This document shows, piece after piece, positions 2,955 to 14,480 of a DNA stretch of 25,593 nt. The stretch lies in IMG/VR virus record IMGVR_UViG_3300017714_000145, positions 1 to 25,593 of that record, one strand, 5' to 3'. The notes under the pieces were generated by a model. The model was not told the origin of the DNA and ran no database searches. It saw only the letters and a list, made by a program, of their open reading frames with translations. The DNA is from a virus. Position 1 is the first letter of the stretch. Every line of letters begins with the position of its first letter. A program made the position numbers and the translations under genes.

Positions 2955-2961
2955 TATTTAG
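2955..2961 (-). promoter_or_regulatory. CTAAATA, candidate late-promoter-like element
   Basis: The minus strand has CTAAATA at the end of the large fibre gene (it includes its TAA stop), 22-28 bases before the chaperone-like ATG. The core TAAATA resembles T4-type late promoters (TATAAATA). The same 7-mer occurs before the large fibre gene at 9640-9646. Chance is possible in AT-rich DNA. Confidence 0.25.
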
Positions 2962-5900
2962 TACGCCTTGATTACCCATTTCGTCCACAAGTATGGAGAA
3001 ACCAAACTAACCTGATCTTGTGGTGCTAAAGACGGCGTTGGAACTAACTGTTTAGTAGCAGAAAGTGTAAATTGTCCAGGTAAAACTTGAACACCAAGAT
3101 CCGTTATAGAGTTGAATGGTAAATCAACAACATTCTGCTTGTAATCTTGAGAAGCAGCGGCAAGACCGTCGCTTTGATTACCAGCAGAATCAAAGTTACC
3201 AAAACTATACATAGCACCACTAGCACCATTATCAAATGGTTCAAGCAAAGAAATATAGTGATCATGTGCTAATTTTTGGAGAGGAACAAATCCTTTCACC
3301 GTAGCAATTTTAGAGGGGATATCAATAGCACTAAACCACTTATAAGCAGGGTCAACACCTAAAAGAGATGAAGTTTGACCACCATTCCATGGAGAATTTG
3401 TCACATCAATATAAGAATTAATCTCATTAAAATCAGCACCACTATCTAATTGATCTTGAATCCATTTGGGATCGGGTGTTTCTTCAATCGAGTTAACCCC
3501 GATGTATCCACTAGGTTGAGTCCACTCTTCATTTTCATCATCATCACCACTCCACCATACAGTATCTTCACCAGGACAATACGCCGATTTAGGTAAATAA
3601 GATGATGGAACTGTTGGACGAGGAGCACTAGTGTCCCAGTACATATATCCCCAAGCATTCCAGAAACCATCGCTTGCAATTGCCGTTGGACCAGAATCAT
3701 CACCAACTGGATTATTTCCAGATGTTTGAAAAGGTACTTTCCATCCACCATTTTGTCCCCAAGTTACTCTACCTTTAACAGCAACAGGATCTGGCTCTCC
3801 AGTAACCAATTCATGGAAGTGTAATGGAGTATCATAAATTTTTTCTTTTTTAAGTCCAACTTTACAAATAGTATCTCCAATAACTTGGAATTCAATCAAA
3901 CCACCAACATCATTATATCCAGTAGTTGATACAGAAGCAATACCAAAATAATCAGATTCTGTTGGTGGTAATCCTTCAGCAGGAGTATCTACCTGCTCTA
4001 ATTCAGCAACACCAGGATCGCCAATAGTATCAATAAACCACCTACCACCTGTTGCTCCAGGTTGACTATTTCCAGGAGATCCTGCTTGCTTAGTTGGATT
4101 AAATGATGGTACTAATGAAGGTGAAGCTAATTGGTTGCCATCAATAACACCAGTGCCTTTCACATATCTATTTCTAAAATCAGGTAGTCTGAATGATGTT
4201 TTAGCATCTCCAATTGCTTTTAAAACATTTCCTTTAAAATCACGAATCTCGATAGTGAAAGTACCACCTTCTGCTTTTTCTCCATATTTATTTTGAATAG
4301 CAGCATAGAGTAAGGGATAAGATTCGGGATCTACGTAACTACCATCACAATACAAGAAACTAGGGAATCTAGAAACAACACTACCTTCCAAATCTCCCCA
4401 GTTATCAGATTTAGTAGCATCTTGAAGAATAGGAATAATAGAACCTATAGGAAGTCCATCAAATTTAGTATCAAATCTAACTTGTTTCCCAGCATTAGGA
4501 CCAGCAACAACATATTTAACTGGTTGAATGGAACTATACCACTGACTGAGTATAGGATCTTGAACAGGAGCAGGAGTTTGTACAGTAAAACTTGTAGTGT
4601 AATTACCAAGAGTAACTTGCCCTGTGACAGAAAATCCTGGAATGACTGAAGAAGTTATTCTTACTTTAAACGTATCTCCGTTTTGGACATTAGTAGGAGT
4701 ACCAATAGTAGATGGTGCCCAAGCTCCAGTATTATTCTTTCTAACTTCTAATCCATTGGTAGTAATAAGTGGCAAACTAATACTACCACCTAAACCAGAA
4801 ACAGATACAGTTTCATCTGCTTCTGTATCAACATTAGGACCAGTAGCAAGTTTAGAAGCAAATGTAAATGGTACTGGGTTTGCTGTAAATGATCCAGCAA
4901 TGCCTACTCTCCAGTCAGTTACATATACAGGATATACACCTAATCCTTCCACTAATCCAGAAACTACCTGAGCACCAACTCTAGTATCAAAATGTCTCTG
5001 CTCACCAATAACATCAGTAGTTTTATAAAATAATCGAACAAGAGCATCTGGATTAATATCAACAATATCTTCTGGATCTCCATTACTATCTAATTGAGCA
5101 ACACCATCAACATAAATTGTCGGTAATTCAGCTGTAGATGAATTAGAAGGAGCATCACCAACATTTGGTGTCACTTGAAATTTAACTGTAGTTTCGATAC
5201 CATCAATAAAGTTTGAGTTACTCCACACATCCTCATTAAGATCGTTATTTAAGGAATCAATCCATGTAAATGAATTGGGTTCGGTATCTTGCTGACTTTT
5301 TGTTTTAATAGACCATTGACTAGTTGAACTAGTTCCAATGCCAACAACAATGTTAAAAGTTGTTGTAGTTACGAAAGTAGTTGATGAAGTTCCTCTAAGT
5401 TGTAGTTCTTGACCATTTGAAATTTTTTGTCCACTATCTCCAGCGTACCAAGCACTCCAAGATTGTCCAACAGTTCTAATTCTAAATTCGGCACTTTGAT
5501 CAACAGAAACCGTAACAGGAACATTAATACCACTAATCACTTCAGTTTCACTAACAATAAGTGAATTAAGATCACAAGGATCCACAGTAGCAAAATTATA
5601 AAAATCTGGAGTTCTATCTGGTTTTGGTCCAGTCTTAAGTACCCATTCTCCAGGAGTTTGACCTACATCTACTTTTACAGTATATGTTTTAGTATATTCA
5701 GTTCCAGTAGTTCCTTCTAACTGTAAATATTTGTCATTAGTAATTTGTGTTGCTCCCCAAGCACCACAATCGTTTCCAGATAATGTATCACAAACTCTTG
5801 CTCTAACATTAAATCCAGGAGCAACAACACTAATAGGCACTCCTCCAGTGATACTAGTAATTAAAGCACGATTAGAAAGAACAGTTTCATTAGCATCCAA

Positions 5901-8900
5901 TCCTTCTACAGTATCAAATGAATATGCATCTGGAGTAACATCTTGTGGAGGATATTCAACATAAACAACACCATCTTGACCAGGAGCAGCACCTAATCCA
6001 GCAAAATTTGAAAGAATAACTGTAGTACCACCAGCTGTATCAGCATAGGCACCACCATGACCACCACCATAAGCATCTAAGTCTCTATTATCAAAAATAT
6101 CTGGGTTTGGAGCAATAATACCAGCATTACCATCAAAACCGCCGCCTCCGCCGCCTCCGCCACCGCCTTGAGATGGTCCAGGTTTTAAAGTAGCAACAAT
6201 AGTATCAGAAGCATTTAAAAATTGTATATAATCAACAGCATAAGCATCATTGGCATTTAAATTATCATTTTGTACACTAGTAGGAACAACACTATTAAAT
6301 TCAGGACTTCCAGCGGTAGATTTAAATTTTAATTGTAAGCTACTAATTTTTTCCCCAGCATTTAAAGGAACATCATAATTCTGCCAAGATCCATATTGAT
6401 TATCGAAAGTTGGGTTACCAATTGAAGGGAAATTAGGAATAACAGTAACTACTCTTGGAGTTCCAGATCCAATTTCTAGTGTAAGACTTTCGTTAGAACC
6501 ATTAGGTCTCTCTCCACCATTACTATCATTACCAGCAATAGCACGAATACGTAATTTAGCAACACCAGTTGTATTTGAATTCCATGTTGCTGTTCTTTCT
6601 GTAACTAGAACTGGGTTATACTTACCCATGAATAATAAACTAGTATTATCATCAGTAATAAATCCACCCAATTCTCCAGTTCCAGGATCACCAAAAGGTC
6701 CGTCACCAGACCCAACAATAGAACAACCAACAATTGTCGGGTTCCAGTTTCCACCATCAGATCCATCATCACCAGCTGTATTTAAACCACTGGTTGAACT
6801 CTTAACTGTGCCATGATAAACAATAGAATTACCAAACTGTTTAGATCCTGGCAATGGCGGTACAGTATCATTACCACCACCAGCACCACCACCGCCGCCG
6901 CCTGCCATAGCAATCAAAGTACCATCAGCCATAGTAATAGCAGCGGCACCACCGCCGCCGCCACCTGCTCCAGAAAAATCTTCAAATCCAGCATTACCGC
7001 CATCACCACCATTAGCATATCCAAAACCACCATCACCACCCTGACCATATCCACCAGTAGCACTATTAGGAGCTCCTTCACCGAATGCTCCACCTTCTTC
7101 TCCTTTTGTAGGAGCATAGAAATTTAATGCTCCTGATGGAGTTACGCCATCAGATTGAAGTGGAAAATCACTTAAAGATTTTTGTACTCTAACTCTAAGT
7201 AAGTTACCAGCACCACCACCAGCACCATAACTATTAGGAGCATCATCTCCACCCGTACCACCACCAGCACCAATTAGTGTAACAGTGAAATCTTCTAGAG
7301 CATAGTAAGGAATAGTTTGTGATACTACTTGACTTTGACCATTAATAATAATATTACCAAAGTCTCCTTCAGAATTTGTTTGTCTATTATAGATAATAAA
7401 AGTATCAGATACAGTATCACTACCAACACCTACTGTGTAGGTAGTTTGGGTAATAGCTCCAGATCCAGAAGCAGCAGTTTTTCTAATATAAAGATAGTCA
7501 TTAGTAGGTTGAATAACAATATTATTTCCCCAGTTAGATTCGTCAACACTAAGATCAGCACCAGCAGTAGATGTAGTAGCATTAGTTTGAACATCCAATC
7601 CTTGAATAGGAACTTTAGCAATATACTCTACACTACCTTCCGCCAAGAAAACAGGTCTAGCATGAAATGGGAATGGAACAACTCTCTTACTCCTAGTATT
7701 GAGAGTCATTGTAGTAACTTCATCAGGAAATAATTTGGCAGGACCATTAGTAGGGTTGCCAACATCAGGATTACCGAATGGTGGTCCTTGTATTTTTATT
7801 GAAGAAGTTACTGCTTGAGATCCACTAGCACCCCAAGTTAGACTAGAGTTAGTTTTTAAATTAATAACGTCGCCATTCTGTACCGTTACCGAGACGGTAC
7901 TCCATGCTCCAGTGTTGTTCTTTCTTATTTGACCAACAGTTCCATCAATAATTGCTTTAATCTCTACAGTTTGTCCATTTAATGTAGCAACATAAGATTG
8001 TGTAGTAGCAATACCATTGGTTTCGCCAGATCTTCCATAATTAGTGAGAGGAGTTTCTAAATCATTATAAGCACCAGAACTAAACTCAGTTCCTAATCCT
8101 GATACTGGTATATCAGTAAAATACATGAGTCCAGGTTCACACTCAGCTGTTGTGCCATTAGAAACATAAACTACCTCATATTCTTGAATTTCAATTTTAG
8201 CATTATCAGCTGAAACTCCAGAAGGGGAAATAATATTAACTTCATCACCAATCTGGTATCCATATCCAGGATCCTGAATAAAAACCGTATTCCTCTTATC
8301 AACATTAACAAAAGCAGTACCTGATCCACCAGCACCCATTCTAATTTTCATCCCAGATCCACTTCCACCAGTAGTGTTAAATGTTTGGGTATAATTAAAT
8401 CCAGCTCCAACATCAAGAATGTCAGTTTTGACACCATATGTAAAGATACGATCGGCTTGAATGTCATTTGGATAACGATCAACTTGTGTCCAAGATTGCC
8501 ATCCATCTTCCTGATTACCTAGAACTTGAGTTTCTTGGTAAGTTCCCGATCCATATGATCCTGCTGACACATTTTCATAAGTATTACTACCTCTAGTATA
8601 AGTTTGTCCACCAGTAGCATAAATTTTAACTGTGCCAGATTCTTTTTGAGTAAAATCAGACCCATTTGGCAATCTAACCCAAACGTCATCACCAAGAACA
8701 ACACCATTTAATGAAGTACTATATCCAGTAGTAGGAGGATTATTGCCACCACCCCCTTCTACCTTCACCATTCTGGTGTCACCAGTTCTAGAAACCCTTA
8801 ATACAACGTCATCGTCAATATTAGTAATATCTACTTTTTTATAAAAATATGTACTTCCACCATTATTGGTAGGAACTTGGTCAACCCTATCAGTAAATTC

Positions 8901-9608
8901 TAATTCACTAAAAAGAATGTCTTGATCTTGTGGTCTAGTTGTAAAATTCCAGGTTGCTCTTACTCTAGAGCTGTTGTTTAACCCAGCAGTAACAAATGCT
9001 GATGGCCATCCACCATTGTAAGATGTTTCACCTACACTAAAATCAACAGCAAGGGTAGTAATATACCAGTTAGGCGTCTTAACACGTAACTGTACTTTAT
9101 CTCCTGGTTGTAATCCAGTATTACCAGGAGCAGCAAGATTAGCAGTAACACTAGTTCTCCACCCAGGAGATACTGCGCTACCATTTCTAAAAATACAAAA
9201 CTGTGGTTGAAAAGTTGTTCCAGTCTGAGATGTATTATTATTTTTTGGTCCGTTAGCAGTTGCTCGAATACAAGCAGGAACAGGAATTTCTATATTATCA
9301 ATTTCAACTACGTTAGAATAATAGGTAGTAAATTTCTCAAAATCGGTATATGAAGTTCCTAGTGTTTCGGTAGTCGCATTGTATTGAGAAAGATAACCAA
9401 GTTGATCTGTAAAAGAAATTGCATCAATTTTTCCATCAGGAACTTTAGTAGCGAAAGTAATTCCATTACCATCTCCACCAACTTCATCAAATCCTGTACC
9501 TATTTGGACATCTACACTAACACTAGTGTTCCACGTACTGGGAGTCGGGTATCGTACTCTAACTATATCACCGTTACCAACGTATACTGGATTACTGCTA
9601 AATGGCAT
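2958..9608 (-). CDS. Giant tail-collar/adhesin protein with Ig-like repeats and Gly-rich lectin-like domain, 2216 aa
   Basis: Virion tail-fibre-type protein. Order of parts: Ig-like beta units at about 1-40 (second half only), 99-195, 255-333 and 540-607; a GxGYxxGDEV unit at 446-478; a Gly-rich region at 775-1220 with runs of six to ten glycines, like phage and host adhesin Gly-rich domains; four tandem Ig-like units at 1222-1678; a tail-collar domain at about 1720-1820 with FLYCDGSYVD (1751-1760) and FRLPDFRNRYVKG (1806-1818); then a C-terminal tip to WVIKAY. The tip has two HxH motifs, HFH (1930-1932) and HDH (2115-2117), as found in metal-coordinating T4 fibre tips. Collar domains are trimeric in known fibres. 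The chaperone-like gene follows 24 bases on, and the 66-residue half-domain gene precedes it by 23 bases. Host-receptor binding is inference. The unusual length suggests repeated module insertion. Confidence 0.9.
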   Translation of the reverse strand: MPFSSNPVYVGNGDIVRVRYPTPSTWNTSVSVDVQIGTGFDEVGGDGNGITFATKVPDGKIDAISFTDQLGYLSQYNATTETLGTSYTDFEKFTTYYSNVVEIDNIEIPVPACIRATANGPKNNNTSQTGTTFQPQFCIFRNGSAVSPGWRTSVTANLAAPGNTGLQPGDKVQLRVKTPNWYITTLAVDFSVGETSYNGGWPSAFVTAGLNNSSRVRATWNFTTRPQDQDILFSELEFTDRVDQVPTNNGGSTYFYKKVDITNIDDDVVLRVSRTGDTRMVKVEGGGGNNPPTTGYSTSLNGVVLGDDVWVRLPNGSDFTQKESGTVKIYATGGQTYTRGSNTYENVSAGSYGSGTYQETQVLGNQEDGWQSWTQVDRYPNDIQADRIFTYGVKTDILDVGAGFNYTQTFNTTGGSGSGMKIRMGAGGSGTAFVNVDKRNTVFIQDPGYGYQIGDEVNIISPSGVSADNAKIEIQEYEVVYVSNGTTAECEPGLMYFTDIPVSGLGTEFSSGAYNDLETPLTNYGRSGETNGIATTQSYVATLNGQTVEIKAIIDGTVGQIRKNNTGAWSTVSVTVQNGDVINLKTNSSLTWGASGSQAVTSSIKIQGPPFGNPDVGNPTNGPAKLFPDEVTTMTLNTRSKRVVPFPFHARPVFLAEGSVEYIAKVPIQGLDVQTNATTSTAGADLSVDESNWGNNIVIQPTNDYLYIRKTAASGSGAITQTTYTVGVGSDTVSDTFIIYNRQTNSEGDFGNIIINGQSQVVSQTIPYYALEDFTVTLIGAGGGTGGDDAPNSYGAGGGAGNLLRVRVQKSLSDFPLQSDGVTPSGALNFYAPTKGEEGGAFGEGAPNSATGGYGQGGDGGFGYANGGDGGNAGFEDFSGAGGGGGGAAAITMADGTLIAMAGGGGGGAGGGNDTVPPLPGSKQFGNSIVYHGTVKSSTSGLNTAGDDGSDGGNWNPTIVGCSIVGSGDGPFGDPGTGELGGFITDDNTSLLFMGKYNPVLVTERTATWNSNTTGVAKLRIRAIAGNDSNGGERPNGSNESLTLEIGSGTPRVVTVIPNFPSIGNPTFDNQYGSWQNYDVPLNAGEKISSLQLKFKSTAGSPEFNSVVPTSVQNDNLNANDAYAVDYIQFLNASDTIVATLKPGPSQGGGGGGGGGGFDGNAGIIAPNPDIFDNRDLDAYGGGHGGAYADTAGGTTVILSNFAGLGAAPGQDGVVYVEYPPQDVTPDAYSFDTVEGLDANETVLSNRALITSITGGVPISVVAPGFNVRARVCDTLSGNDCGAWGATQITNDKYLQLEGTTGTEYTKTYTVKVDVGQTPGEWVLKTGPKPDRTPDFYNFATVDPCDLNSLIVSETEVISGINVPVTVSVDQSAEFRIRTVGQSWSAWYAGDSGQKISNGQELQLRGTSSTTFVTTTTFNIVVGIGTSSTSQWSIKTKSQQDTEPNSFTWIDSLNNDLNEDVWSNSNFIDGIETTVKFQVTPNVGDAPSNSSTAELPTIYVDGVAQLDSNGDPEDIVDINPDALVRLFYKTTDVIGEQRHFDTRVGAQVVSGLVEGLGVYPVYVTDWRVGIAGSFTANPVPFTFASKLATGPNVDTEADETVSVSGLGGSISLPLITTNGLEVRKNNTGAWAPSTIGTPTNVQNGDTFKVRITSSVIPGFSVTGQVTLGNYTTSFTVQTPAPVQDPILSQWYSSIQPVKYVVAGPNAGKQVRFDTKFDGLPIGSIIPILQDATKSDNWGDLEGSVVSRFPSFLYCDGSYVDPESYPLLYAAIQNKYGEKAEGGTFTIEIRDFKGNVLKAIGDAKTSFRLPDFRNRYVKGTGVIDGNQLASPSLVPSFNPTKQAGSPGNSQPGATGGRWFIDTIGDPGVAELEQVDTPAEGLPPTESDYFGIASVSTTGYNDVGGLIEFQVIGDTICKVGLKKEKIYDTPLHFHELVTGEPDPVAVKGRVTWGQNGGWKVPFQTSGNNPVGDDSGPTAIASDGFWNAWGYMYWDTSAPRPTVPSSYLPKSAYCPGEDTVWWSGDDDENEEWTQPSGYIGVNSIEETPDPKWIQDQLDSGADFNEINSYIDVTNSPWNGGQTSSLLGVDPAYKWFSAIDIPSKIATVKGFVPLQKLAHDHYISLLEPFDNGASGAMYSFGNFDSAGNQSDGLAAASQDYKQNVVDLPFNSITDLGVQVLPGQFTLSATKQLVPTPSLAPQDQVSLVSPYLWTKWVIKAY
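4575..5945 (-). repeat. Four tandem Ig-like repeats in the large fibre protein
   Basis: Protein-level repeats at residues about 1222-1327, 1330-1437, 1439-1574 and 1575-1678. Each begins with an aromatic-F segment (AYSFDTV, FYNFATV, SFTWIDS, PFTFASK), continues through an acidic/Asn stretch, and the first two and the fourth then show an x-NG-x or ND beta strand such as ISNGQELQLRG or VQNGDTFKVR. The spacing is about 108 residues in the first two. The DNA itself has diverged. Confidence 0.65.
6139..6168 (-). repeat. G-rich low-complexity tract encoding a ten-glycine run
   Basis: The plus strand is an almost pure CCG/CCT/CCA tract; the coding strand is (GGC/GGA/GGT)n and encodes glycines at residues 1148-1157 of the large fibre protein. 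Shorter tracts of the same kind lie near 6888-6905 and 6949-6965, and in the paralogues near 12490-12515, 12556-12582 and 14323-14337. They are G+C islands in AT-rich DNA. Confidence 0.85.
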
Positions 9609-9631
9609 TACTACTCAGGTTACTGATATTC

Positions 9632-9832
9632 CTATTTGTTATTTAGGTCGGATGGTCTCACATTAATCCAAGGACCGTTATTAATTCTAACTTGAATGGG
9701 TTTATCAGAAGTAATTTCTTTCTGTTCGCCCTGTTCAGCATTAATATGTAATCTACCAGACGTATACATACCATCTAGTTCCATATCATATAATGCTGGA
9801 AAAATTTTACTTAGATTATTTTTTTTAGTCAT
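9632..9832 (-). CDS. 66-aa protein resembling a first-half Ig-like domain
   Basis: Small protein running from ATG at 9832 to TAG. The ATG overlaps the upstream TGA stop as ATGA, a classic coupling arrangement, so I prefer it to a TTG four codons upstream at 9844. Residues 1-20 (MTKKNNLSKIFPALYDMELD) have no recognisable motif. From about 21 on, MYTSGRLHIN and then SDKPIQVRINNGPWINVR (41-58) match the terminal segment of the three paralogues, which end SDNPNTQVLINNSNTWKNI and similar. It is thus almost only the first half of the cluster's Ig-like unit. The next protein, starting 23 bases on, opens with the matching second half. It may be a fibre connector or a partner completing that fold; both are inference. 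Confidence 0.75.
   Translation of the reverse strand: MTKKNNLSKIFPALYDMELDGMYTSGRLHINAEQGEQKEITSDKPIQVRINNGPWINVRPSDLNNK
9640..9646 (-). promoter_or_regulatory. CTAAATA, candidate late-promoter-like element
   Basis: CTAAATA on the minus strand about 31 bases before the ATG of the large fibre gene, within the last codons (Leu-Asn-Asn) of the 66-aa gene. It matches the element at 2955-2961 and the TAAATA core of T4-type late promoters. It could equally be a by-product of coding sequence. Confidence 0.25.
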
Positions 9833-10041
9833 AATGAATTCCAATAAGCATTAGCAATAATTTGTACAACGGATTCTTCACCAGAAATATCGTCACCTTT
9901 ATTTAAATAGCGGTCAATTTTAACATTATCAACAACTCTATCTTCATAAGTAATTTCGTATCTTTCCCACAACCCAATTTGTTGTGATCCTAACACGACA
10001 AAAACTCGTTCTAATCCTTTTTTTGTTCTAGTGCTAGCCAT
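9829..10041 (-). CDS. Unknown small protein, 70 aa
   Basis: A 70-residue protein from ATG to TGA in the structural run. It starts one base after the stop of the PA14-like paralogue, and its TGA overlaps the next ATG. It is soluble with mixed charge: a basic start (MASTRTKKGLERVF), an alternating hydrophobic stretch (VFVVLGSQQIGLWERYEITYED), and a C-terminal part that looks helical (SVVQIIANAYWNSL). It shows no Ig-like motif, so it is not simply another half-domain like the gene after it. The ribosome binding site is weak (CGAGAAA upstream, from the Arg-Glu codons of the preceding gene). A small tail connector or assembly factor would fit the position, but nothing in the sequence proves it. 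Confidence 0.75.
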   Translation of the reverse strand: MASTRTKKGLERVFVVLGSQQIGLWERYEITYEDRVVDNVKIDRYLNKGDDISGEESVVQIIANAYWNSL

Positions 10042-10042
10042 T

Positions 10043-11296
10043 TTATATTTCTCGTATATTTTTCCAGGTATTACTATTATTTATTAGCACTTGAGTATTC
10101 GGATTGTCAGATCTAATTTCTACTGGAATGTCAACATCATTAACAGTAACAGTACTAGTTTGAACATAAAATTCAAGTTGAGGATCATTTACAATTAGAT
10201 CAATATCTTCATATGGGTAAATACCAGTAACACTACTAAAATCAAAATCTTCTTTAATTTTAGGTTTTTTAGTTTGAAATGTAACATTAAAAGCATCAAG
10301 TGATCCAACTGTAACAGGGATAACTTTATTATTAAATTTACCAAATTCTGATCCAGCGGGTAAATTACTAATGTCAGTATTATAAGGAGCACCAGTAGTT
10401 CGTAAATATATAGTTTGCCCGTTAGTAAAGTATTTTGGATTACTAAATCCACTATTATTAGAACTAGAAAATGTAACAGCACTTGCTGTAGTTTCTACTT
10501 TAACAACCATATCAACACCAGAAAGAGTTCCTATGCTTTTTGTAGCATTTGTTTCATTTGGTTCTATATCTTCATGTAATGTTGTCCATGTATTAGATGG
10601 AGTATTATCATTTCTAACATTTACTTCAAGTGTTTCTGTATCACACCCAGAAGCATTACATAGTTCTAATGTATATGTTCTTGTAGCAGGAGTATTATTA
10701 TTTGATGACTGAGGTAAATTAGTAATACTAGTGTTTCCACTAGCCGAATTTGGTAATGAGATATTATCTACGTTACTCGTAATTTTAGCACTAGTAATAG
10801 AAGTAAGTGAATTAGAAGTCCAATATAATGTAGTACTATATAAAGGAGATCCTGAAACAGAACTATTTTGTGGATTTGGATCAGCGTAAAAAGTAAGAAT
10901 CTCTGGAGGAGGTGGCAGACTAACACCAACCCAATCTGCTGCCATTCCCCAAGGACCACCACCACTGTTAGCTGATGACATTGAAATAGTATAAGTTCCA
11001 GGAGCAAAGTTATTCGGAGTTTCCCTCAATGTCCATCCGCTATAACCACCAGAGTCAAATTGTTTTACACCATCAATAAAAATTGACCCTTGGTCATCAA
11101 CAGCAGTTCTGAATTGTTGCTTCCCAAAACTTTGAAAAGTAATAGACCAACTGTATGTCCGATTTGCACCAGATCCGCTATCGTTTCCACCAATATTAAG
11201 ACTATTCATTTGAGCGGACCAGGCACCATTAGAATTTTGTCCTGTAAAACCTTGATTATTGGCAGATCTAGTTGTCCAACTACTATCTAATGTCAT
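10043..11296 (-). CDS. Fibre-associated adhesin paralogue with PA14-like head, 417 aa
   Basis: One of three paralogues with different heads. The head, residues about 1-128, has TYSWSITFQSFGKQQFRTAV, DDQGSIFIDG (67-76) and a later GTYTISMSSANSGGGPWGMA. That order, with an Asp-Asp pair followed by IDG and then a Gly-x-Tyr strand, is the layout of PA14-type carbohydrate-binding beta barrels. A PPPP linker (128-131) leads to a PKD/Ig-like domain (132-230, containing the shared PNPQNSS motif), a full Ig-like unit (232-343; GTLSGVDM at 257-263, TNGQTIYLR at 291-299), and a terminal half unit (349-417) ending INNSNTWKNIREI. It starts seven bases after the preceding paralogue without a clear Shine-Dalgarno. 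Glycan recognition on the host surface is inferred from the head. Confidence 0.85.
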   Translation of the reverse strand: MTLDSSWTTRSANNQGFTGQNSNGAWSAQMNSLNIGGNDSGSGANRTYSWSITFQSFGKQQFRTAVDDQGSIFIDGVKQFDSGGYSGWTLRETPNNFAPGTYTISMSSANSGGGPWGMAADWVGVSLPPPPEILTFYADPNPQNSSVSGSPLYSTTLYWTSNSLTSITSAKITSNVDNISLPNSASGNTSITNLPQSSNNNTPATRTYTLELCNASGCDTETLEVNVRNDNTPSNTWTTLHEDIEPNETNATKSIGTLSGVDMVVKVETTASAVTFSSSNNSGFSNPKYFTNGQTIYLRTTGAPYNTDISNLPAGSEFGKFNNKVIPVTVGSLDAFNVTFQTKKPKIKEDFDFSSVTGIYPYEDIDLIVNDPQLEFYVQTSTVTVNDVDIPVEIRSDNPNTQVLINNSNTWKNIREI

Positions 11297-11303
11297 TGAT
11301 TTA

Positions 11304-12920
11304 TTAAGATAAACGTTTGGGATTTAAATTTTCGGCATTTTTCCAACTATCATTTACCGATACTTGAACATTAGAATTTGTTGATCTAATTGGAACATCA
11401 ATTTCAATATCATTACATGTAACACTATTAGTTACCATATAAACATTAGGATCTGGATTTATAAAATCAATATCAGGATTTGGAACATATCCAGTTTGAT
11501 TTCCATAATTAAAAGATTCCTTAATTACGGGTGCTCTTGTTCTATATGTTACATTAAATGCTGCCTTGCTACCAACTTTTACCGATTTTACTCTGTCATT
11601 TGTTTTCCCAACATTAGAATTAACAGAAACTCCAGACAAATCAGTATTGAACGGGGCTGGTATAAATCGAATATACACATTTTGACCAGAATTTATTAAT
11701 TTAGTAGTATTAAATCCTGAAGTACTACTAGTACTAAAAGTAACAGCACTGCTAGTAGAACTTACTTTAGTAGGCATATCTACTCCCGATAATGTACCAA
11801 TTTTTTTGGTAATTGCTGTAGTTGATGGATCTACAGTAAACAACGTAGTCCATGAATTGGATGGATTATTATCATTTCGGACCTTAACCGTAAGTGTTTG
11901 GGTCACACAATTGCCTCCACTACCACCAGCACATAATTTTAGAGTATACGTTACTTCTTTTGGTGTATTGTTATTATTTGTCTGTGGTAAGTCTGTTATC
12001 GAAATAGGAGAACTAGTTAGTTGAGTATAACTACCATTTCCTTTTTTATAAGCAGCATAATCATAATCTTTCCCAGACCATGCAATAGAAGTGCTGTATA
12101 AAGGTGTACCTAGTGAACTATTCTGTGGATTTGGACTGGCAGTAAAAGTAGAGATTTCTGGGGTAACTTCCTGCCACGTTACTTTTACACTACCACTAAC
12201 CTGATTAGTACTATCGCTCTGGTATGAAAGATAAGTGCTATTATATTTTGATCCTCCACCAGATCCGCCGCCTGCTGTTTTATTATTAAAATTAGGATCA
12301 GAACCACCTTGACCACCGCTACCACCAGAAGCTCCAGCGCCACCTCCTCCACCGCCACCACCGTCGTTGGGTCTACCATCAGGAGCACCATTAATTCTCC
12401 CACCATTGCCTCCACCACTACCACCGTTAGATAGTCCACTAGACCAGCTACCCCCAGCACCGCCGTTGTCTCCAGGTCTGTTTGCGCTAGCGCCGCCACC
12501 GCCGCCGCCACCTCCAGCTACGATAACCCAATTTCCACTCAGTTTTACTCTAGTGGATCCACCACCACCACCGCCGCCACCTGAATAGGGATACGGTCCA
12601 GCATCCGCGCCCCTCCCTCCACTATCCCCGCCAGCACCACCGTTGCCACCACCAGTTCCAACAGCATCATTAGCACCGTTAGATCCTTCTCTACTACACC
12701 ACATTTGTATAGTATATCCAGTAAAATCATAAGCCGATTTTACTGCAAAAGTGCCGCCTCTACCACCATTACCAGATCCACCATCATCATTAGAATCGTC
12801 TCCACCATCACCACCGCCTGATGCTTTAACAGTGATACTTACATTTGTGCCGTTTGATGGTATGGATACTTGTGTTTCGCTAGTAGAAGATGTTGAATAA
12901 GATTTAGGAGTCTTTGCCAT
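11304..12920 (-). CDS. Fibre-associated adhesin paralogue with Gly-rich head, 538 aa
   Basis: Second paralogue. The N-terminal head (about 1-250) opens with a beta segment (TQVSIPSNGTNVSITVKA) and then becomes extremely Gly-rich, with runs of eight glycines (114-121 and 136-143, 187-194). It returns to beta with VSGSVKVTWQEV (241-252). Such domains form polyglycine-II-like lattices in some phage tip adhesins and are often receptor-binding. After it come the shared PKD/Ig-like domain (254-350, PNPQNSS), a full Ig-like unit (352-460, GTLSGVDM), and a terminal half unit (467-538) with SVNDSWKNAENLNP. Its ATG directly follows the TAA of the preceding paralogue, with GGGAG six bases upstream. No cysteine pair is present in this head, unlike the neighbour. 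Confidence 0.87.
   Translation of the reverse strand: MAKTPKSYSTSSTSETQVSIPSNGTNVSITVKASGGGDGGDDSNDDGGSGNGGRGGTFAVKSAYDFTGYTIQMWCSREGSNGANDAVGTGGGNGGAGGDSGGRGADAGPYPYSGGGGGGGGSTRVKLSGNWVIVAGGGGGGGGASANRPGDNGGAGGSWSSGLSNGGSGGGNGGRINGAPDGRPNDGGGGGGGGAGASGGSGGQGGSDPNFNNKTAGGGSGGGSKYNSTYLSYQSDSTNQVSGSVKVTWQEVTPEISTFTASPNPQNSSLGTPLYSTSIAWSGKDYDYAAYKKGNGSYTQLTSSPISITDLPQTNNNNTPKEVTYTLKLCAGGSGGNCVTQTLTVKVRNDNNPSNSWTTLFTVDPSTTAITKKIGTLSGVDMPTKVSSTSSAVTFSTSSTSGFNTTKLINSGQNVYIRFIPAPFNTDLSGVSVNSNVGKTNDRVKSVKVGSKAAFNVTYRTRAPVIKESFNYGNQTGYVPNPDIDFINPDPNVYMVTNSVTCNDIEIDVPIRSTNSNVQVSVNDSWKNAENLNPKRLS
11421..11504 (-). repeat. 84-bp near-identical segment shared with the neighbouring paralogue (copy 1)
   Basis: Aligns without gaps to 13065-13148 with about five mismatches by eye, four of them clustered. 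It encodes the GNQTGYVPNPDID region of the terminal half unit. Flanking DNA of the two genes is much less similar. Confidence 0.85.
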
Positions 12921-14480
12921 TTATATCTCCCGTACATACTGCCATGTATCATTATTTATTGAAATTTGTATATCTGGGTTGTCTGATTTTATTTCTGTAC
13001 TAATTTCACCAGAACCAATGTTAGAAGTAATTTGTCCTCTTGATAACTCAATTTCATTACATTCAACACTATTAGTTACCATATAAGATATAGGATCTGG
13101 ATTTATAAGATCAATATCAGGATTTGGAACATATCCAGTTTGATTTCCAAAATCAAAATTTTCATCAATGACAGGTCTTTTTACATTCCACGTAACATTA
13201 AAATTTTTACTACCCAAATACATTGTAAATGTACGAGAAGCAATATTTCCAGTAGTATTAGAAGTTCTTCCTGTAATATCAACTTCGTAATATGGCATAG
13301 GAAGAGTTACATAGATATTATCTCCAGGGTAAAATAACCAGGGATTACTACTATTAGTATTTGTTTTTCCGAGAGATCCACCTGACGCTGTGATATATCC
13401 CCAAACAGGCATATCAACTCCAGATACAGTTCCTATGTTTATTGTTGCTGTTTCTGATGGATTTAATTCACTTTCCGTTTTTGAAATTACTGCATTAGTT
13501 GTAGTTGGAGTCCAATCATTTTTGACACTAACCGTCACTGTTGTACTAGTAAAAGTACCGCCATACCCATATGCCACAACATTATAAGTTTTAGTAGCAG
13601 GACTAGTTCCATTAGCATTAGACTGTAACCCTGTGCTTATATTAGTGTTTCCACCTCCACCATTATTATCCGTGTGATAGACAACACCAGATTTTTTAAC
13701 CTCTACTTTATCGGCATAAGATGTATCCCAAGCAATATTTACCACATCGCTAGGAGTATTTTGTATACCACCACTTTGAGTAGGATTTAAATTTTCTTGA
13801 TTTGTAACAGTAACACTATTAATTACTGGATCTGCCCAGTACCAAGCCCATCCAGCATATCCTTCACCGCCTGATCCTGAATCACCATCATCATTATTAC
13901 CTGCCCCTCCTCCACCAAATGAGTTAGCATCAATACCACCAGGACAACCAGTACACCCAAAACTAGGACTATCACCACTCCAAGATATAGTAGCGCCTTT
14001 TCCACCTTTACCATCACCACATCCACCACATCCAGCAGCTCCTCCACCATCTTGTCCAGCGTCATCATCAGAACCAGAATTTCCACCCGCGGTTTCTAGA
14101 TTTCCAGTTCCAGATCCGCCGCCTCCACCACCTGAGTTATCAGTTCCAGTTTCTCCACCTGTAGCTAATGCTATATTAGAACCAGTAGATCTCCTAACAA
14201 ATGAACTAATACCAGCGTTTCCACCTTTACTACTAGTTCTCCTGGGAGATTTTTGTGCTTGTCTCCATGTAATAGTTTCGCCAACTGATATATCAGCATA
14301 ACCAGCGGCTTTACCTCCACCGCCTCCACCACCACCGTCTTCATCACCATCATCATCACGAAATCCACCACCACCAGCACCAATACAGGCTGCTGTAATT
14401 CTATCGACATTATTTTTCTGCCAATTACCAGTGGATCCACCAGATCCACTTTTTTCTACAATACCGCCGAATACTGACAT
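12921..14480 (-). CDS. Fibre-associated adhesin paralogue with Gly-rich, Cys-pair head, 519 aa
   Basis: First paralogue in transcription order. The head (about 1-215) is Gly- and Asp-rich with glycine runs at 49-56 and 117-122 and acidic clusters (RDDDGDEDGG near 41-50). It differs from the neighbour in having two CxxC pairs, C151/C154 and C176/C179, in CGGCG and CTGC. Then come a PKD/Ig-like domain (218-321), a full Ig-like unit (323-433; GTVSGVDM at 350-357, YPGDNIYVT at 384-392), and a terminal half unit (440-519) ending INNDTWQYVREI. The half unit carries an extra insertion around 479-493 compared with its siblings. It starts four bases after the upstream collar gene. It is probably a tip or fibre-side adhesin (inference). 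Confidence 0.87.
   Translation of the reverse strand: MSVFGGIVEKSGSGGSTGNWQKNNVDRITAACIGAGGGGFRDDDGDEDGGGGGGGGKAAGYADISVGETITWRQAQKSPRRTSSKGGNAGISSFVRRSTGSNIALATGGETGTDNSGGGGGGSGTGNLETAGGNSGSDDDAGQDGGGAAGCGGCGDGKGGKGATISWSGDSPSFGCTGCPGGIDANSFGGGGAGNNDDGDSGSGGEGYAGWAWYWADPVINSVTVTNQENLNPTQSGGIQNTPSDVVNIAWDTSYADKVEVKKSGVVYHTDNNGGGGNTNISTGLQSNANGTSPATKTYNVVAYGYGGTFTSTTVTVSVKNDWTPTTTNAVISKTESELNPSETATINIGTVSGVDMPVWGYITASGGSLGKTNTNSSNPWLFYPGDNIYVTLPMPYYEVDITGRTSNTTGNIASRTFTMYLGSKNFNVTWNVKRPVIDENFDFGNQTGYVPNPDIDLINPDPISYMVTNSVECNEIELSRGQITSNIGSGEISTEIKSDNPDIQISINNDTWQYVREI
12927..12931 (-). promoter_or_regulatory. Ribosome binding site inside the end of the upstream paralogue
   Basis: GGGAG on the minus strand six bases before the ATG at 12920. 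It is formed by the Arg-Glu codons of the terminal REI motif of the preceding paralogue. It fixes the start of the 538-aa gene, whose ATG abuts the TAA stop. Confidence 0.75.
13065..13148 (-). repeat. 84-bp near-identical segment shared with the neighbouring paralogue (copy 2)
   Basis: Partner of 11421-11504, offset 1644 bases, same orientation. Both encode the start of the C-terminal half unit. Confidence 0.85.

Follow-up and report, generated by a model that had tools for sequence, protein, structure and literature searches.

A putative Ig-like joint formed by two proteins at the start of the short tail fibre of T4-like cyanophages

Introduction

In chaperone-usher pili, an Ig sandwich is completed between chains by one donated strand. 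Subunits of the FimA/FimF type and Caf1 carry an incomplete Ig-like sandwich that is completed in trans, which links the subunits. The donated strand is a single G strand from an N-terminal extension, and the subunits polymerise. One Ig-like domain is likewise reconstituted from two chains in SpyTag/SpyCatcher, an engineered system derived from a CnaB domain, in which one strand is set against the rest and an isopeptide bond seals the complex.

Ig-like folds are also found in virion proteins of tailed phages, for example in Hoc and in T5-type pb6/pb10. The Ig-like domains of phages have been described as complete domains within one chain (PMC10385173, PMC10713586). A limited check of the open-licence literature returned no phage case in which two proteins share an Ig-like domain, and no gp12 joint made from two half domains.

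The locus described here resembles the pili in that an incomplete Ig-like sandwich appears to be completed in trans, linking subunits. It differs from them in that about four strands stand at the C-terminus of one protein and three at the N-terminus of the other, that one socket faces a few plugs, and that the setting is a phage fibre. In contrast to Hoc and pb6/pb10, there are half domains in two chains, not complete ones. Our best reading is a two-chain Ig joint, which resembles strand complementation but swaps half a sandwich. Specifically, we think that one Ig-like beta sandwich is built jointly by a 66-aa protein and the N-terminal ~57 residues of a 2216-aa protein, as an interchain joint that snaps together (we would put the probability at about 0.7).

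Results

The window (the whole stretch of DNA that we analysed) is a 25.6-kb virus record from a T4-like phage, and its relatives are phages of picocyanobacteria. On the minus strand, a 2713-aa structural protein is followed by two collar-type proteins (649 and 303 aa), three structural proteins (519, 538 and 417 aa), two small genes (70 and 66 aa) and finally the 2216-aa short-tail-fibre/collar protein. The features that concern us are the following.

9632..9832, minus strand: 66-aa gene, a free-standing first half (strands A–D, "plug") of an Ig-like unit; its family matches C-terminal first-half tails
9656..9718, minus strand: conserved plug stretch EITSDKPIQVRINNGPWINVR, residues 39–59 and best-conserved part of the 66-aa protein, with the P-I-Q-V spacing
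9639..9646, minus strand: late-promoter-like CTAAATAA, inside the last codons of the 66-aa gene and 38 bases 5' of the fibre ATG
9609..9631, minus strand: intergenic gap of 23 bases, with a TGA (9615–9617) in the frame of the large gene (read from the sequence)
9438..9608, minus strand: residues 1–57 of the 2216-aa protein, a second half ("socket", strands E–G), from HMM, hhalign and AlphaFold2
2958..9608, minus strand: 2216-aa short-tail-fibre/collar protein with the N-terminal socket (PF07484, PHROG 4924)
10046..10180, minus strand: C-terminal first half (plug) of the 417-aa structural protein (HMM positions 14–55, E 3.4e-5; end of PHROG 2155)
11307..11468, minus strand: C-terminal first half (plug) of the 538-aa structural protein (HMM positions 9–53, E 8.1e-6)
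12924..13118, minus strand: C-terminal first half (plug) with an insertion, 519-aa structural protein (alignment to other plugs)

The window therefore holds four first halves and one second half. The original prediction, that two adjacent genes share one Ig-like domain, had its coordinates, lengths and motifs right, and it was also right about the 23-base gap, the difference in frame and the TGA that precedes the large gene in its own frame. It had missed that the 519-, 538- and 417-aa proteins upstream also end in a first half.

By its collar domain (Phage Tail Collar, PF07484) and its family match (PHROG 4924), the 2216-aa protein is a T4-like gp12. Its homologues in Syn1 and S-PM2, which bear the annotation gp12, likewise begin with this socket. 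The protein in the window has about twice the length of Syn1 gp12 (1057 aa) and carries extra Ig-like units. The collar proteins of 2216, 303 and 649 aa (ends 2958, 14485 and 15396) have similar C-termini (WVIKAY, YVIKI and LIRAY, respectively), as do their relatives. The 70-aa gene (9829–10041, minus strand) lies 5' of the 66-aa gene with an ATGA overlap; relatives of 69–102 aa occur in most phages that carry the small plug gene, and none was seen in three of these loci (L005, L019 and L037).

We took six intact Ig-like units from the window, built a profile of 99 positions from them and enlarged it with related loci. The profile also matches the 2216-aa protein at several internal places. 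Across all related loci, matches to the first half only lie at C-termini (85 of 87), matches to the second half only lie at N-termini (39 of 39), and full-unit matches are internal (395 of 397). The commonest break positions are 55 and 56. This distribution of half and full units is far from chance. Two side observations concern individual contigs. In L041 (3620–5950), an internal first-half-only match is followed by unrelated residues, as if this contig contained a frameshift. One sublineage has long structural proteins (L001 8859–11524, L027 3991–7539 and L033 5605–7509) with a divergent plug-like C-terminus, which the plug profile missed.

That the 2216-aa protein opens with a second half is confirmed directly: its residues 4–38 match only positions 56–90 of the 99 (E 2.5e-7). 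For profile–profile comparisons (hhalign) we used a model of full units only. The N-terminal socket family aligns to columns 52–98 of the intact unit (E 8.6e-7), and the C-terminal first-half tails align to columns 2–53 (E 1.9e-8). Short and divergent as it is, the 66-aa protein alone gives no significant match to the model of the intact unit (E 1.1), and hence its assignment rests on its family. This family (40 members) matches the C-terminal first-half tails with an E-value of 1.8e-14, which bears out the claim that the 66-aa protein is a first half only. As expected of this control, profile–profile comparison of the same family with the socket family gave no match. A direct profile alignment between the small family and the intact unit was dropped since the hairpin was misaligned; the small family is therefore linked via the long C-terminal tails. 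Membership in the Ig-like repeat family by profile match is thus direct for the socket and for the tails of the 417- and 538-aa proteins, and for the small family it goes through those tails only. The 519-aa plug falls under the HMM threshold because of its insertion. Apart from the collar domain, a Pfam search gave no family for the small, the plug-bearing or the socket sequences, and sequence searches of the PDB found no relative.

About 95 distinct plug/socket junctions keep the split, counted over IMG/VR and isolates of the Kyanoviridae; a wider search yielded 94 distinct ones. Fused versions, which had been suggested as something to look for in related phages, were found neither among the IMG/VR loci examined nor among the isolates. 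In every related locus the socket opens an open reading frame and the upstream gene, where readable, ends in a plug. The isolates with the split are S-PM2, Syn1, S-RIM44, S-RIM32, S-CAM1, S-CAM3, S-CAM4, S-H9-2, ACG-2014e, Sf-CH3, Sf-CH11 and AG-345-P14. In these twelve, the upstream plug gene encodes a long protein that is annotated in most as a virion structural protein, and often several such proteins stand in a row, all ending in a plug. They are like the PHROG 2155 or cyanophage virion structural proteins (T4-GC 737–739, 1047 and 1048), which are long upstream proteins with a plug at their end. The lineage of the window differs from these in that the plug additionally exists as a separate gene for a free protein of 55–66 aa. 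Four isolate records were searched whole (Sf-FR1, S-CAM1, S-CAM3 and AG-345-P14); each has one terminal socket, and the plug counts are 1, 3, 6 and 1, respectively. Sf-FR1 is a small-gene phage, with a small protein of 58 aa. We gave up a simple stoichiometry in which each gp12 trimer has three plugs, as plug counts range from 1 to 6. With the C-terminus of the 417-aa protein as query, a search of viral contigs returned two loci only.

All small-gene relatives that we examined have the small gene beside the socket, and this gene evolves under purifying selection (dN/dS 0.03–0.33, 14 pairs). Conservation is highest in the plug hairpin and in the socket, and each half ranks with the best-conserved parts of its protein. 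That the same break recurs across relatives suggests a snap-together joint that holds parts of the tail together. It had also been proposed that the 66-aa protein is a small adaptor. This is too specific: the protein barely exceeds half a domain, and the same half ends long virion structural proteins in many relatives. The 66-aa protein looks like a detached plug.

In several relatives plug and socket share one frame and are separated by stops only. For AlphaFold2 we took the DNA of one related locus (L004), with both frames in register and stops read as Ser, which yields the plug, a short linker and the first 233 fibre residues. In this single-chain model, where untranslated sequence tethers the halves and the tether favours contact, the plug strands have a pLDDT of 87–94 and socket residues 5–34 a pLDDT of 91/85/79, with strands at socket residues 8–10, 15–21, 29–36 and 48–54. 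Without the plug, the socket has a pLDDT of 60–75 and only short strands at 29–32 and 50–53. The domain after the socket is predicted with a pLDDT of about 95 both with and without the plug.

Against two-Ig chains, VIA-align aligned the fused model over residues 1–277/279. Among these, 7n6g_4C aligned over 185 residues (Z 6.4, 3.9 Å) and titin Z1Z2 (2f8v_D) over 165 residues (Z 6.0, 3.8 Å); VIA Z-scores below 8, such as these, can reflect a mere common arrangement. The pilins CfaE/CfaB are among the Foldseek and VIA matches of the model, as Ig-like folds generally are. With Z below 8 and a single-chain model, an Ig-like fold is predicted across both halves, which speaks for a joint two-chain Ig domain without proving one.

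At 31–46 bases 5' of the fibre ATG, 44 of 44 nonredundant junctions have a T4-type late-promoter-like element (NATAAATA or CTAAATA), where 0.015 per 70 bases is expected. The element is also present in 8 of 8 further isolate loci, and is absent within 70 bases of the fibre start in one contig (L097). Cyanophage genomes have been searched for T4-type late promoters before (PMC3037559). The putative promoter at the split would let the fibre gene be transcribed alone. Similar sequences occur elsewhere in the window: the INN codons of the 519-aa plug (12951–12959, minus strand) and of the 417-aa plug (10076–10084, minus strand) read ATAAATAAT, which is late-promoter-like and lies about 39–43 bases before the next gene. 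Hence, coding and promoter constraints may overlap there.

Discussion

Our reading of a two-chain joint is based on the homology of the halves, the conservation of the split, the arrangement of one socket and many plugs, and a predicted fold that depends on the plug. We infer from this that the plug strands A–D of the small protein and the socket strands E–G of the fibre assemble between chains. The joint would lie at the N-terminal end of the fibre, which is presumably the end closer to the virion. Of the original prediction, the idea of two chains and one sandwich has gained from the homology, the roughly 95 conserved junctions and the plug-dependent socket fold, with physical assembly as the step we add by inference. 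Donor-strand complementation in the strict sense has to be given up. The break falls after strand D and each part contributes several strands: one chain has about four and its partner three, where strict complementation involves a single donated strand.

Which plug fills the socket in this phage? The small proteins carry the P-I-Q-V residues at one fixed spacing, as do all 15 of the listed long plugs from phages without the small gene. Long plugs in small-gene phages are mostly one residue longer in the lead of the C strand than this type, by a spacing pattern that misparses a minority of long plugs. Given that the small plug adjoins the socket and carries P-I-Q-V, it is the likeliest socket partner in the window. 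The lineage of the window has a free plug of 55–66 aa beside the socket, with the spacing that long proteins carry elsewhere. Judging from these sequence patterns, the simplest reading is that the small protein took over the canonical plug role, and the long tails may still be used.

One could also argue that the socket is filled by the plugs of the long proteins, and that the 66-aa protein is a temporary cap, an assembly chaperone or a competitor. The 417-, 538- and 519-aa proteins all end in a first half, so that four plugs compete for one socket gene within the window, and in phages without the small gene (e.g., S-PM2 and S-CAM1) long proteins are the only plugs. However, the longer C-strand lead sets most long plugs of small-gene phages apart from the P-I-Q-V type, and the small gene, which is under purifying selection, borders the socket in every small-gene locus examined. 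We consider this alternative unlikely, though it deserves to be taken seriously.

The charges at the junction also bear on the pairing of plug and socket. In nearly all of 94 junctions, the charges of one plug-strand residue (R/K or D/E/Q) and one socket residue (E/P or K/R) are reciprocal. Where the plug residue is basic, the socket residue is basic in 0 of 65 junctions; where it is acidic or neutral, the socket residue is basic in 25 of 29. On the tree the pattern goes back to only one or two independent co-changes, and by MI-APC the pair ranks about 30th of 1485. With so few independent co-changes, the reciprocity counts as supporting evidence only. The net charges of plug and socket anticorrelate as well (Spearman −0.50, again with few independent changes).

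It is less probable still that the two halves never meet. The split would then be an old gene fission that left the C-terminal first halves as incomplete ends, and the N-terminus of the fibre would fold in some other way, for example as a trimer. In T4, gp12 is a trimer, and a trimeric gp12 could stabilise an open edge. There are several plugs per socket, and the physical assembly of the halves is a prediction. Two observations speak against such a fission. First, both halves are highly conserved within their proteins and have been kept in all those distinct junctions. Second, the socket loses predicted strands in AlphaFold2 when the plug is removed.

Ribosome recoding (a frameshift or bypass), which fuses Ig-like extensions to some phage structural proteins, hardly needs to be considered for these adjacent genes with halves in the right order, since the gaps between them measure 9–46 bases in most loci and all three relative frames occur, the frames do not overlap and are separated by stops (several in some relatives), the large gene has its own conserved ATG behind a late-promoter-like element, and the upstream protein is a long structural protein in many phages.

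The joint between two chains could be one case of a more general system. Across the T4-like phages of cyanobacteria, gp12 begins with the socket, and between one and six virion structural proteins, whose genes lie immediately upstream, end in the plug. We propose only tentatively that one gp12 socket takes any of these proteins, that attachment proteins are exchanged or mixed on one fibre while the joint stays the same, and that the lineage of the window has made the plug an independent subunit; on balance we doubt that the full scheme applies.

If the two-chain joint is real, then it would explain how the fibre of marine cyanophages is linked to the abundant but unassigned virion structural proteins whose genes lie upstream of gp12, and it would predict which protein end meets which. 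It would also provide a split Ig pair from nature, available in many sequence variants that lend themselves to tests of specificity. Finally, it would give a likely role to tiny genes that are currently annotated as hypothetical.
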